Assembly (NCBI GenBank): GCA_028284185.1
Contig: JANQSG010000002.1
Coordinates: 1-64,000, forward strand
Reading direction: 5' to 3'
From: Kangiella sp.
Lineage (GTDB): Bacteria > Pseudomonadota > Gammaproteobacteria > Enterobacterales > Kangiellaceae
Length of the DNA: 64,000 nt
In this document: positions 11,059 through 50,735 of the stretch, piece after piece
Numbering within the stretch: the first letter of the stretch is position 1
How the letters are laid out: every line of letters begins with the position of its first letter
Notes under the pieces: model-generated
What the model was told of the DNA's origin: nothing
What the model saw: the letters and a program-made list of their open reading frames with translations, nothing else
Database searches by the model: none
Program-made: the position numbers and the translations under genes

Positions 11059-11087
11059 TTGATTTTTGCGCTTTGAGGGGCTAGAAT
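11059..11087 (+). promoter_or_regulatory. Alpha operon promoter
   Basis: TTGATT (11059-11064), exactly 17 bases, then TAGAAT (11082-11087), followed by a GC-rich discriminator ACGCGCCC. This is a good sigma-70 promoter with the stringent-type discriminator. The leader to rpsM is only about 43 bases, shorter than the E. coli alpha leader that folds into the S4-binding pseudoknot, so S4 control here may differ or be absent. Confidence 0.8.
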
Positions 11088-11136
11088 ACGCGCCCTTTCA
11101 AAGCTTGCTTAATCAAAAATTTAGGAGAAATTGTTA

Positions 11137-11493
11137 ATGGCTCGTATAGCTGGTATTAACATTCCGGTACATAAGCATGCTGAGATCGCATTGACCGCTA
11201 TCTATGGTATCGGTCGTCCTCGTGCACAGAAAATCTGTGCTGATGCAGGGGTTGAACCATCTGCAAAGATCAAAGATTTGAACGAAGACCAAATTGAGAA
11301 TCTAAGAAACGAGGTGAGCAAATTTACCGTTGAAGGTGATTTGCGTCGCGAAATCAACATGAATATTAAACGTTTGATGGACTTGGGTTGTTTCCGAGGC
11401 ATTCGTCATCGTCGTAACTTGCCACTACGTGGTCAACGTACGAAGACTAACGCCCGTACCCGTAAAGGTCCACGCAAACCTATTAAGAAATAA
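11137..11493 (+). CDS. rpsM: 30S ribosomal protein S13
   Basis: 118 residues as in E. coli. The ATG at 11137 gives the family start [14 protein letters not shown] and is 8 bases after AGGAGA; an in-frame TTG two codons upstream was rejected. S13 contacts P-site tRNA and L5. The basic tail [17 protein letters not shown] is typical. Confidence 0.98.
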
Positions 11494-46344: not shown

Positions 46345-47169
46345 ATGGATACGTTACAAGCAATTTTTTTAGCACTGGTGCAAGGCTTAACTGAATTTTT
46401 ACCAGTATCCAGTTCAGCCCATTTGATCTTGACCTCAAAAATTTTGGGTTGGCAGGATCAAGGCCTGGCCTTTGATGTGGCGGTGCATGTAGGTACCTTA
46501 ACAGCGGTGCTGATCTATTTTAGAAAAGAAGTAGTAGAAATGATTAGTGCCTGGTTTGGCTCTACCTTTAAAGGTAAGCATACAGCAAACTCGCGATTGG
46601 CCTGGGCGGTGATTTTAGGAACCATTCCTGTGGGTTTGTTTGGTTTGTTTCTGGAAGCTTTCGATATCGTGGATAATTACTTAAGAGCCATTCCGGTAAT
46701 TGCCACAACGACTATTGTTTTCGGTTTGTTATTAGCGCTAGCCGATAAAAAATACAAAAAAGTACAAGCTGAAAAACTAAAAGATGAATATCAATTATCC
46801 TGGAAAGATGTAGCCATGATTGGTGGGGCCCAAGCCTTAGCATTAATTCCAGGAACTTCTCGCTCCGGCGTAACCATGACTGCCGCCGCACTATTGGGTT
46901 TTACTCGAACTGCCGCTGCTCGTTATTCTTTCTTGCTTTCTATTCCCGCAATCCTGCTACCTGGTGGCTTAAAAGGTTATCAACTCGTCAGCGATGGCGC
47001 ACACTTTGATTGGAGTTTCTTGATTTTAGGCGTCATTGTTTCTGCTATTAGCGCTTTGGCCTGTATCCACTTATTCCTTAAGTGGCTTGAAAAGATCGGC
47101 TTTATGCCTTTTGTTTGGTATCGATTGGCGTTAGGGATTGGCTTGTTTATTTTGTTTTTCTTGAGTTAA
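46345..47169 (+). CDS. uppP: Undecaprenyl-diphosphatase
   Basis: 274 residues (E. coli 273). Signatures: [13 protein letters not shown] and [16 protein letters not shown]. It recycles the undecaprenyl lipid carrier for peptidoglycan synthesis; its loss gives bacitracin sensitivity in E. coli. No terminator is evident; the next feature is the attC-like site at 47241. Confidence 0.98.
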
Positions 47170-47240: not shown

Positions 47241-47314
47241 GCCTAACGCTTCAATAATCGGTGCGGCTTTTTGCTGCGTCCGGCATCGGCGCGTAGTTAA
47301 TTGACTTGTTATGC
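47241..47314 (-). other. attC-like integron recombination site 1
   Basis: On the - strand the site begins GCATAAC and ends GTTAGGC, matching RYYYAAC (imperfect) and GTTRRRY. The inner arms TCAATTA and TTATTGA pair at 6 of 7 positions; a GC-rich centre with a run of A residues forms the rest. The stop codon (TAA) of the gene at 47309-48580 lies inside GCATAAC, a position common for cassette genes. It is 74 bases long. Assignment rests on the conserved boxes and architecture, not on a model search. Confidence 0.72.
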
Positions 47315-48580
47315 ATTTGAGTCATGGTAGATATCAAATACGTAGACACGAACTTGAATTAACCGACTATCATCGTCTTTAGACATAAATTCGTAGTGCC
47401 ACTCCCCTTCACCAATATCTTTTATGTGCTTTTTAAACCGAGGATGAGACTTCAATGTTTCTGGTGTTTTCTCCAGGAGATCGGTGAACTTTTTATTATG
47501 CTTATTAAATATAATGATAGAGGCCTTACAGTCTCTCCAAGTAAGGTAACCAAGAAGTTGATCTATGGCTTTGCTTAACTCAGAGGCACCTCTCCATACC
47601 TTACACTCAGCGATGAATGCTGCTCTATTATCGCTTTCAATTTTTATATCTGTTTTCCCTAACTTCCTGAATGCTTCGCCGGCGGCTGCACCTTTATAGT
47701 GCCCATTTAAATGGGCAAGAATTATGTCTCGCAGCTCTTCTTCATCGTGAACGGCGTAAGTTTTTGGTGTTGCCTCAAAGGTTGCGCCTTCATGTCGTAT
47801 AACTGAGAGAATATGTTCATAATCATCTACTGTTATTCCTGGCTCTGCCGCATATCCAGATTGGGGTGGCGGAGGTAAAGGTTTCACCAGTTTTTTCTTA
47901 ATATCAATAGGCTTAAAACTAGGTGCAGATCCATTTCTTTTCATTGGGATATTTAGAAAGTCAGCAAGTCTGTCGTGTTTATTTAATCTTTCTCTTCTAG
48001 CTTCTACAAGTCTTCTGACATTGACTTCAAGTGTGTCATTATGCCCCTTAATCTGTGACGACTGGCCATTAATATAAAAGCGAACCCCATCAAGGACATT
48101 ATCAAGATGTGTTTTTATTTGCTGTTGAGGATCGTCAGCGGGTTGTTGAATGACAATATCAAGATAGCCAACACCATCCCTATTAGGTGATCGAATATCT
48201 CCATGCGGAATAGTTGACCTCCACTGGTTTGGCTTTAATTGCCATAACGAAGGGTCTCCCGTATATGGAATTGATATGACCACCTTAATCCCTGGCACCA
48301 TTATTGGGCCACTGTCACCAAAAGGGTTTCGGCTTCTATTATGGCTTACGTCAACTCTCACTTCTTGCTGAACCATTTCGGCTTTATCTTCATAAAGTTC
48401 TAATGGACTAACATATAAATCATTCACAATGTGGGCTACCAGATCATCAATGGGAGTTGCCAAAAATTGATCTTGATTAATAGCATCAACTTTATCTTTG
48501 GCTGATTTGGCGTAATGATCTAGAGTCGCACTCAAATCGTCATCCCAAAATAAAGTGTTTTCCCTGCCTCTTCTATACAT
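47309..48580 (-). CDS. Cassette protein with C-terminal PD-(D/E)XK nuclease-like domain
   Basis: 423 residues, no membrane segments. Residues 1-215 are of unknown fold, with a beta-rich middle (VPGIKVVISIPYTG; VGYLDIVIQQP). A proline-rich linker (KPLPPPPQSG, about 233-242) separates a C-terminal domain of about 170 residues. There EEELRDIIL, then Asp311 (GKTDIKIE), Glu325 and Lys327 (FIAECKVWRG) and Gln341 (AIDQLLGYL) follow the pattern of PD-(D/E)XK nucleases, as in Mrr-type restriction enzymes. The gene sits directly before an attC-like site on the same strand, so it looks like an integron cassette. A defence role is plausible but unproven. Confidence 0.8.
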   Translation of the reverse strand: MYRRGRENTLFWDDDLSATLDHYAKSAKDKVDAINQDQFLATPIDDLVAHIVNDLYVSPLELYEDKAEMVQQEVRVDVSHNRSRNPFGDSGPIMVPGIKVVISIPYTGDPSLWQLKPNQWRSTIPHGDIRSPNRDGVGYLDIVIQQPADDPQQQIKTHLDNVLDGVRFYINGQSSQIKGHNDTLEVNVRRLVEARRERLNKHDRLADFLNIPMKRNGSAPSFKPIDIKKKLVKPLPPPPQSGYAAEPGITVDDYEHILSVIRHEGATFEATPKTYAVHDEEELRDIILAHLNGHYKGAAAGEAFRKLGKTDIKIESDNRAAFIAECKVWRGASELSKAIDQLLGYLTWRDCKASIIIFNKHNKKFTDLLEKTPETLKSHPRFKKHIKDIGEGEWHYEFMSKDDDSRLIQVRVYVFDIYHDSNA

Positions 48581-48606
48581 TTACTTTTAGACTCCGTGTT
48601 TATGCA

Positions 48607-48714
48607 TAACATAGTAATATATAAATTTAATTGTAACAGCTTAATTTATAAGAACATATTTTTGAAGTGTCAGTTTTATGGATATTTTGAGGATTATCGG
48701 ATTCCTTAATTCCT
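48607..48714 (-). repeat. Imperfect direct repeat of about 107 bases, copy A
   Basis: About nine in ten positions match copy B at 49276-49382 by eye. On the - strand both copies begin near GGAATTAAGGAATC and end ACTATGTTA, after which the sequences diverge. That end is a GTTATGC here, a core-like box, and GTTAATT in copy B. The repeat holds the 3' half of the 60-codon ORF at 48627-48809. Confidence 0.85.
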
Positions 48715-48809
48715 CCAAATTCAATATAAGGAAACTCAGAGCCATTGATTGAAATGGTGTGAGCTATTGAGTTCAAGAAACTTTCTAATCTAGCAACAGC
48801 AAGCGACAT
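48627..48809 (-). CDS. 60-codon cassette ORF, unknown function
   Basis: The ATG lies in the core box (GTTATGT) of the attC-like site at 48806-48867, and the ORF continues MSLAVARLESFLNSIAH to KLSCYN. Cassette ORFs often start at or near the core like this. The C-terminal half falls in the repeat; copy B encodes a related stretch (KESANPQSIYKTD against KESDNPQNIHKTD) but with an in-frame stop just upstream. No domain recognised and no separate attC follows, so expression is doubtful. Confidence 0.4.
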   Translation of the reverse strand: MSLAVARLESFLNSIAHTISINGSEFPYIEFGGIKESDNPQNIHKTDTSKICSYKLSCYN

Positions 48810-48867
48810 AACGCCTCAAACAGAGGTGCGTGCTTTTTGCGCATCCAGCTGCTTTGATTTGTTAAAT
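48806..48867 (-). other. attC-like integron recombination site 2
   Basis: On the - strand the site begins ATTTAAC (a perfect RYYYAAC) and ends GTTATGT. Inner boxes TCAAA and TTTGA pair; a GC-rich centre with a run of A sits between. Length 62 bases. The upstream gene at 48816-49262 reads through it and stops in the TTTGA box. Confidence 0.72.
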
Positions 48868-49262
48868 GGATCATAACCCCGAACCCAAATATGATAAAAA
48901 GCAACTGCAATTAAAATTAGTGTGAACATTGTAAACCAAAAACCCTCAGTATCTGCCTCGTAACTTACATCACCTGTTTTGTCATAAGTGATTGATAACA
49001 TCATAGGTGATGAAAAGTTATTAGGAATTAACCAATATGAGCGTTGAACCTTACTTTTTGTAACTCCTCGATAAGTAGTAGATTGGGAGCTATACCCAAC
49101 AAGAACGCCGCTATAATTAGGGTAAGCATTACCAATTATTTCTCTATCTTGATGCCAATTAGCAAATTGCCCAACAAGAGCTAAAACTGGTACTAATAAT
49201 AGAAAGATAGGTAATGAGTATTTAAAAAGTACCCACATTATTTTGAAATATAACTTCATCAC
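48816..49262 (-). CDS. Membrane protein cassette, unknown function
   Basis: 148 residues with a hydrophobic N-terminal segment (about 10-33) and a second near 109-125, and a loop of about 75 residues between (SSQSTTYRGVTKSKVQRSYWLIP). The last 18 codons (DPFNKSKQLDAQKARTSV) lie inside the attC-like site, ending at the TGA of its TTTGA box. AGGTG stands just before the ATG. No family recognised. The gene has the layout of an integron cassette. Confidence 0.7.
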   Translation of the reverse strand: MMKLYFKIMWVLFKYSLPIFLLLVPVLALVGQFANWHQDREIIGNAYPNYSGVLVGYSSQSTTYRGVTKSKVQRSYWLIPNNFSSPMMLSITYDKTGDVSYEADTEGFWFTMFTLILIAVAFYHIWVRGYDPFNKSKQLDAQKARTSV

Positions 49263-49275
49263 CTATCTACTCAAT

Positions 49276-49382
49276 TAACATAGTAATATAAATCCTATTA
49301 TAACAGCTTAATTTATAAGAACGTATTTTTGAAGTGTCAGTTTTATAGATGCTTTGAGGATTAGCAGATTCCTTAATTCCTT
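49276..49382 (-). repeat. Imperfect direct repeat of about 107 bases, copy B
   Basis: See copy A at 48607-48714. It starts about 40 bases after the cca stop on the - strand. An in-frame stop lies just before its ORF segment, so it is a 3' fragment without a start. The region 49263-49418 holds nothing else. Confidence 0.85.
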
Positions 49383-49418
49383 TTAATTGAAATTAGAAAT
49401 ATATTATTTATTAGCAGG

Positions 49419-50645
49419 TTAGTATTTAAACTCTGCTTTTGCAGCCTTAATAAGTTTTGTTCTAGCCAGGTCTATAGCTTCTCCTAGTTTTTTCCCTGCA
49501 TATCCTTTCTCAATTAAAGCTTGGGTATCTATATCTTTAGAAGCTTGGTAGCATTGCCAAAGCAATTTACCTTGCTTATAAATCTTATCTTCATTATACA
49601 GTCGACCATTAAAGTCGGCTTCGCAGCTAATAATAAATTGTTTAAGAAGTTCTGGATTACGATAGGCCTTAAGAGCTTTTAAGACTTTTAAAATAGTATT
49701 AGGGCGCAGTTCAAACATTTTATGACAATGTAAGTGATAACGAGAAACCTGCACCGCGAGTTCTTGATAGTCTTTAGGAATTCTTAAGCGTTTGCAGACG
49801 GTTTTGATTATAGGTACGCCAGTTGATTCATGACCTTTATGACGTGGCCATTCGCTTTTTGGTGTGGTGCCCTTGCCTAAGTCATGGAATAGGGCGGCAA
49901 ATCGAACGATCGGATCTTTAGTTTTTTTAGCTGCTTGTTCTAATACCATCATGGTATGGATTCCAGTATCGATTTCCGGATGCCACTGTGCTGGATTAGG
50001 AATTCCCCAAAGTTTATCTAGTTCGGGGATTAAAACTTTTAACGCACTACATTCTCTTAAAACTTCAAAGTAAACCCAGGGTGATTCAGTTTCCAGTGCT
50101 CTTTGGGTTTCCTGCCAGACTCTTTCCGCGGTGAGTTCCGCAATTTCCGATTGAGCGAGCTCTGTCATCAACTGCAAAGTTTCATTGGCAACATTAAACC
50201 CTAGATGATGAAAACGTGCTGCAAAACGTGCGACTCTTAAAACTCTTAAGGGATCTTCGGCAAAGGCTGGCGATACATGCCGTAGAATTTTTTTCTCAAG
50301 ATCCTGTTGGCCGCCATGAGGATCGATAATGCTGCCATCAGTGTCTTGGGCCATAGCATTGATGGTTAAGTCGCGGCGGATTAAGTCATCTTCCAGAGTA
50401 ATAGCAGCCGAAAAATCCACTGCAAAACCCTTGTAGCCTTTGCCGGACTTTCGTTCGGTTCGAGCCAGCGCATACTCTTCGCCGGTTTTAGGATCGATAA
50501 AGACCGGAAAGTCTTTGCCCACTTCCTGAAAGCCGGCATCAAGCATCTGTTGTGGGGTGGAACCAACCACCACATAATCACGGTCTTTTATCGGTAAGCC
50601 CAGTAACTTATCACGGACCGCGCCGCCCACCAGGAAAATTTGCAT
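49419..50645 (-). CDS. cca: CCA tRNA nucleotidyltransferase
   Basis: 408 residues from the ATG at 50645 (MQIFLVGGAVRDKLLGL); an upstream in-frame start at 50684 does not fit the family. E. coli is 412. The enzyme adds or repairs the tRNA 3' CCA end. Nucleotidyltransferase motif: VVVGSTPQQML with RDYVV. The C-terminal HD domain (FHDLGKGTTP) gives the phosphohydrolase activities seen in E. coli. It borders the putative cassette cluster. Confidence 0.97.
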   Translation of the reverse strand: MQIFLVGGAVRDKLLGLPIKDRDYVVVGSTPQQMLDAGFQEVGKDFPVFIDPKTGEEYALARTERKSGKGYKGFAVDFSAAITLEDDLIRRDLTINAMAQDTDGSIIDPHGGQQDLEKKILRHVSPAFAEDPLRVLRVARFAARFHHLGFNVANETLQLMTELAQSEIAELTAERVWQETQRALETESPWVYFEVLRECSALKVLIPELDKLWGIPNPAQWHPEIDTGIHTMMVLEQAAKKTKDPIVRFAALFHDLGKGTTPKSEWPRHKGHESTGVPIIKTVCKRLRIPKDYQELAVQVSRYHLHCHKMFELRPNTILKVLKALKAYRNPELLKQFIISCEADFNGRLYNEDKIYKQGKLLWQCYQASKDIDTQALIEKGYAGKKLGEAIDLARTKLIKAAKAEFKY

Positions 50646-50735
50646 CGAGTTTGCCTGTGTCATTGAGTATGAATGCTTTTGCACTTGCTATTAAGATAAC
50701 TCATAATAGGCTCAGAGCAATAGCAAATATTCCTG

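Follow-up and report, generated by a model that had tools for sequence, protein, structure and literature searches.

The locus between cca and uppP raises the question of whether two gene cassettes lying between core genes, with no integrase beside them, are a stranded array or a working part of an integron whose integrase is located elsewhere. In the window (the whole 64,000-nucleotide stretch of Kangiella sp. DNA analysed here) an initial annotation had described two attC-like sites on the - strand, and both are found with the positions and boxes that it gave. The observation is thus confirmed, and its interpretation as an integrase-less cassette cluster is partly supported and incomplete. 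The annotation overlooked a 106-nt direct repeat (48619-48724 and 49286-49391, 87% identity), which is attI. With the repeat recognized as attI, the locus reads on the - strand as cca, attI w1, the 148-aa cassette, its attC, a short ORF, attI w2, the PDC-S54 cassette, its attC, and uppP. Core genes here and below were named by recognising their translations, unless otherwise supported.

49419..50684, - strand: cca (left flank); ORF with an orthologue in 19/19 genus relatives, named by recognition and orthology with no family search
49276..49391, - strand: attI copy w1, lying 28 bp past the stop codon of cca; core G/TTA at the 49276 end
48816..49262, - strand: cassette 1 ORF, 148 aa; hydrophobic segments by eye
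48806..48867, - strand: attC of cassette 1; 39.3 bits, E 2.4e-7 (model R1)
48627..48809, - strand: 60-aa ORF; start in the attC core, runs into attI w2
48607..48724, - strand: attI copy w2, within the array; core G/TTATGC at the 48607 end
47309..48580, - strand: cassette 2 ORF, 423 aa, PADLOC PDC-S54; profile match E 5.9e-131
47241..47314, - strand: attC of cassette 2; 28.2 bits, E 1.4e-4 (model R1)
46345..47169, + strand: uppP (right flank); ORF beside cca in 19/19 relatives, named by recognition and orthology

Both sites score well as attC. A covariance model (R1), trained only on other genomes (11 attC sites from intI-linked arrays of four members of the genus), gives them the two top scores in the window, and the next-best place on either strand reaches 11.9 bits (E 1.7). 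Among the 13 R1 matches with E≤1 in the same genome they rank second and seventh. When the bottom strands are folded as free DNA, 3 of 500 shuffles are at least as stable as the attC at 48806-48867, and 111 of 500 are at least as stable as that at 47241-47314; the fold of this weaker site does not exceed shuffles in stability, which counts against it. A scan for boxes and folds was noisy and was superseded by the covariance model. The stop codons of ORFs 48816-49262 and 47309-48580 fall within the attC sites, as had been proposed. Two further places resemble the attC at 47241-47314. The last attC of the intI-linked array (L004:377-433), which was not scored by R1, has by eye the same ends and a shorter middle, and G000:C5:46415-46479 (L078:4416-4480), which immediately follows the first ORF at a different place headed by attI, matches it at 76%.

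The 148-aa protein of cassette 1 has no family match and no relative among the other 19 genomes of the genus, and the gene for the 423-aa protein of cassette 2 is carried by 0 of 60 relatives. High attC scores are joined to cassette genes that are not found in relatives, the opposite of the low scores with conserved synteny that would have spoken against a cassette cluster. The 60-aa ORF (48627..48809) also has no family match and is probably not a gene of its own. Elsewhere in the window, positions 11060-11169 are an ordinary Alpha operon ribosome binding site (RF00140).

The repeat is identified as attI by its match to the region just in front of the genome's own intI. Copy w1 is 80% identical to this native attI over 110 nt and copy w2 85% over 111 nt, and counterparts stand in front of intI in three other genomes of the genus (G010, G004 and G017). 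In front of each window cassette, therefore, stands a copy of the native attI, ~110 bp long, that ends at the core G/TTA, and the first cassette is preceded by a homologue of the intI-proximal attI as in an integron. A profile seeded with both copies matches w1 at 7.9e-21 and w2 at 6.8e-25. Copies elsewhere also end at the core, mostly ATG/TTA, and diverge beyond it. In the longer of these, homology extends for ~255 bp back to a TTTGACT box; the intI start lies ~237 nt before the core in the intI-linked copies, which places this box just inside intI.

Promoter-like boxes occur within both window copies, at CTGACA 49340-49335 and TATAAA 49317-49312 in w1 and at CTGACA 48673-48668 and TATAAA 48650-48645 in w2, each pair matching at 10 of 12 positions. 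Boxes of at least 10/12 are present in 13 of 33 attI copies and in 2.0% of shuffles; at the looser limit of at least 8/12 the figures are 31 of 33 and 53.8%. The boxes of the native attI match at only 7 of 12 positions.

No integrase had been seen near the cluster, and this holds for the ORF list of the window and for its contig: C1 carries no intI over the cut-off, and w1 has no intI next to it. It does not hold for the genome, which has an intact intI on contig C7 (G000:C7:12636-13601; 378.6 bits against a cut-off of 265) that aligns over nearly its full length with V. cholerae IntI4. This gene has its own attI and array, with a long run of - strand genes with attC-like ends leading from it towards the contig start. 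The CALIN reading stands in so far as the cluster contains at least two attC sites in one place, core genes on either side and no integron integrase nearby (the sole match over the cut-off in the genome is that on C7). What it leaves out is the two attI copies, and the cluster is one of several attI-led modules in a genome with an intact integrase.

An attI model (R2) was trained on 33 copies, including 9 of the 11 dispersed copies of this genome, and 45 of its 131 matches, with E above 1e-3, were left out before counting. The 86 matches with E≤1e-3 fall in 20/20 genomes of the genus. Counting as native every copy with a full-length intI no more than 25 kb away on its contig, 80 of the 86 are non-native, with 11 in the genome of the window and one to eleven per genome. 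The model also recovers natives outside its training set, those of G005 and G011, at E≤1e-3; matches beside intI in G018 and G015 appear at E≤0.05, and none was found beside intI in G016. With stricter filters, R2 matched 7 of 119 genomes of the order, all seven of them of the genus, and 0 of the 112 others.

The attC sites away from intI follow these copies. Within 5 kb downstream of a dispersed attI and on the same strand lie 44 of the 66 non-native attC sites (0.33 expected); the rest comprise one upstream, one on the opposite strand and 20 near no attI. Counted from the attI side, only 39 of the 86 matches are followed within 6 kb by a scored attC. This is true for five of the 11 dispersed copies of the window's genome (w1, w2, C5:149.6k, C7:49.3k and C30), and a sixth (C5:47.1k) has an attC only by the 76% match to the window attC described above. 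One copy in this genome is flanked by murA and a gene for a DegS-like protease and comes with an attC and a cassette encoding an HNH protein; others lie behind mnmE and beside the gene of a 395-aa oxidoreductase. At G000:C27:268 an attI runs off the contig end and at G000:C25:1532-1600 an attC stands near the beginning of a contig; the two may be parts of a single platform divided in the assembly.

Integrase genes are less widespread than the platforms. An intI over the cut-off is present in 9/20 genomes of the genus; the remaining eleven nevertheless have platforms, so exchange in these is past or the gene has been missed. In the 1.5 kb upstream of dispersed attI copies, tblastn for intI gave chance-level matches only. 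Queries from the N-terminus of intI gave one stub, on C27 of the window's genome, at E 0.007, where the control strand reaches E 0.037. Stubs of 178 codons (G018:C5), 20 codons (G007, at cca) and 11 codons (C27) lie beside attI. The longest of these, G018:C5:45636-46088 (L075), is a second, truncated intI (~178 codons) next to an attI match and an attC. Its genome has a full-length intI as well, on C22.

The core genes claimed as flanks are neighbours in all 19 relatives, 17 with cca and uppP within 1.5 kb of each other and two (G007 and G016) within longer loci. In G007 the interval is itself a platform with a different cassette, consisting of intI codons 1-20, an attI 81% like the native attI of G016, an ORF for a 777-aa protein and an attC that scores 30.7 bits. 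The 777-aa protein (L139:3090-5423) has no PADLOC or Pfam match; by eye, its stretch IIEAKSQ is nuclease-like. The other intervals inspected contain different ORFs or little room, and neither the attC nor the attI model matches in them. In the nearest species, with 80% cca identity, the interval is not alignable by eye, and no exact empty site was found.

Whether cassettes have been exchanged at such places was addressed by comparing orthologous platforms, grouped by flanking genes on one or both sides at ~65-99% protein identity (the upstream side of the G009/G004b grouping by DNA). First ORFs of at least 70 aa were compared by blastp (E≤1e-5) in seven groups with 16 pairs, and 0 of the 16 pairs share a first ORF. 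Some later ORFs are common to orthologous platforms, such as a 126-aa protein behind mnmE (70%). The most informative pair is that of the closely related species G010 and G012, where flank identity is 95.3% as far as the core and returns at 93.5% beyond the arrays, while the arrays themselves, of 2761 and 1352 nt, are unrelated. The flank of this platform has no intI in G010, and that of G012 is its homologue. Unrelated arrays on the same intI-less flank imply that exchange continued after any local intI had gone, and this pair is the best argument for continued exchange in trans. At a second platform of these genomes homology is lost 6 nt past the core, and the flanks are ~1000 and ~700 nt apart; the G012 intI locus is without the stretch that carries intI in G010. 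Within an array of G010 (L137:3167-3209; G010:C1:245866-245908), an attI fragment follows the cut-off first box of an attC, similar to Delta-attI.

The cargo of cassette 2 ties the window to integrons outside the genus. The 423-aa protein matches PDC-S54, a candidate phage defence family by its PADLOC profile, over essentially its full length (residues 3-419 on positions 3-408 of 410), and has 16 relatives in genome contigs. The closest, at 91% and 93% identity, come from Nitrincola sp. A-D6 and an Oceanospirillaceae MAG. In both of these the gene lies between attC sites, and in Nitrincola it is an ordinary integron cassette. DNA shared with these homologues begins at the G of the w2 core and ends within the first box of the attC. 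The interior of the attC is unlike both, and the window attC (47241-47314) shows an 85% match to the attC of a different cassette from the Oceanospirillaceae MAG (L160). In an alignment of ten PDC-S54 homologues the motifs GKTD and FIAECK are invariant, and this suggests a nuclease of the PD-(D/E)XK type. No relevant solved structures were found for PDC-S54. Among 69 hand-picked ORFs downstream of attI copies, PADLOC and Pfam searches gave a methyltransferase, an ApaLI-like restriction enzyme, AbiTii, PDC-S64 and others; no enrichment of cargo is claimed, since the set includes apparent flanking core genes (L21, OTCase).

We favour, with a probability of roughly 0.75, the reading that the cluster belongs, as one platform among several, to a dispersed chromosomal integron, in which one integrase serves many attI platforms in trans. 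The integrase on C7 would recombine cassettes at each attI copy, and the promoter boxes within attI, as predicted from sequence, may express the first cassette of each platform, giving many 'first positions' per cell instead of one. The attI copies, the attC sites, the exact junctions and the differing content at inherited places can be read from the DNA itself; from these we infer that IntI acts on the dispersed copies, the junctions being consistent with attI x attC recombination. The platforms probably go back to additional copies of the intI-attI region, the intI part of which has since been shortened or lost. The stubs of 178, 20 and 11 codons fit such decay of extra integrons, and the position of w2 within an array, together with the Delta-attI-like copy in G010, fits attI copies riding on cassettes.

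The same stubs of decreasing length could mean that each platform was once a complete integron which exchanged cassettes in cis and later lost its intI, leaving a frozen, attI-headed CALIN, and loss or translocation of the integrase is the accepted origin of CALINs in the account given in PMC11389934. The unrelated arrays of G010 and G012 on a 95% identical, intI-less flank argue against frozen relics, as do the chance-level intI matches upstream of the dispersed copies, and we regard this alternative as unlikely; taken as an account of how the platforms arose, it can be reconciled with a dispersed integron.

It is far less credible that IntI placed the cassettes at a chance genomic site of the attG type. 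Such insertion does exist: attG is named in PMC12901181, and a 2024 paper by Loot reportedly deals with it. It needs no attI, yet both cassettes are preceded by more than 100 bp of attI, further clusters at places common to several species are headed by this attI as well, and the target of cassette 2 is the attI-like w2, whereas an attG target is neither attI nor attC. We attach least weight of all to the idea that an unrelated promoter or MITE-like repeat chances to precede the cassettes. The sequence is indeed repeated and has promoter-like boxes, but nearly all copies end at G/TTA, other genomes have the same sequence next to intI, the repeat is joined at the core G by a cassette that also occurs in other integrons, and no common terminal repeats are seen by eye at the left end.

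A dispersed integron resembles several described systems and coincides with none of those compared. In the portions of PMC9024848 and PMC11389934 that bear on this, integrons are described with one attI adjoining intI, and CALINs chiefly as arrays that have decayed or become displaced. The clusters described here are like CALINs in having two or more attC sites with no intI nearby, in principle mobilisable in trans (PMC11389934, in part); they differ in being headed by attI copies with promoter-like boxes, and many modules have a single scored attC, below the two-attC threshold given in PMC9024848. The C7 locus, with intI, attI and a long array in one place, is like a sedentary chromosomal integron, which lacks extra attI platforms scattered over the genome. 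In Xanthomonas, with intI at ilvD, CALINs similarly occupy conserved places away from intI, but passages of PMC12444791 on those clusters describe no attI. Delta-attI-type cassettes of class 1 and 2 integrons likewise have an attI sequence within an array and away from intI, and sections of PMC12901181 report that this sequence recombines; there a truncated attI replaces the attC behind a gene, whereas here attI copies precede cassettes at many chromosomal places. Searches of the open-licence literature, mostly at the level of titles and abstracts, found no title on dispersed attI platforms.

For the genus as a whole, it seems fairly probable that there is a distributed integron with one integrase (lost in some species) and, in each genome, one to eleven attI platforms that stand alone at inherited loci, where cassettes are exchanged in trans and many first positions are expressed at once. 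If this is true, islands with a single attC, too few for the usual detection threshold, may be functional slots for cassettes, and there would be an explanation for the conserved places that some CALINs occupy. The action of IntI in trans on chromosomal attI copies becomes directly testable. One genome could then express many cassettes at the same time, candidate defence genes included.
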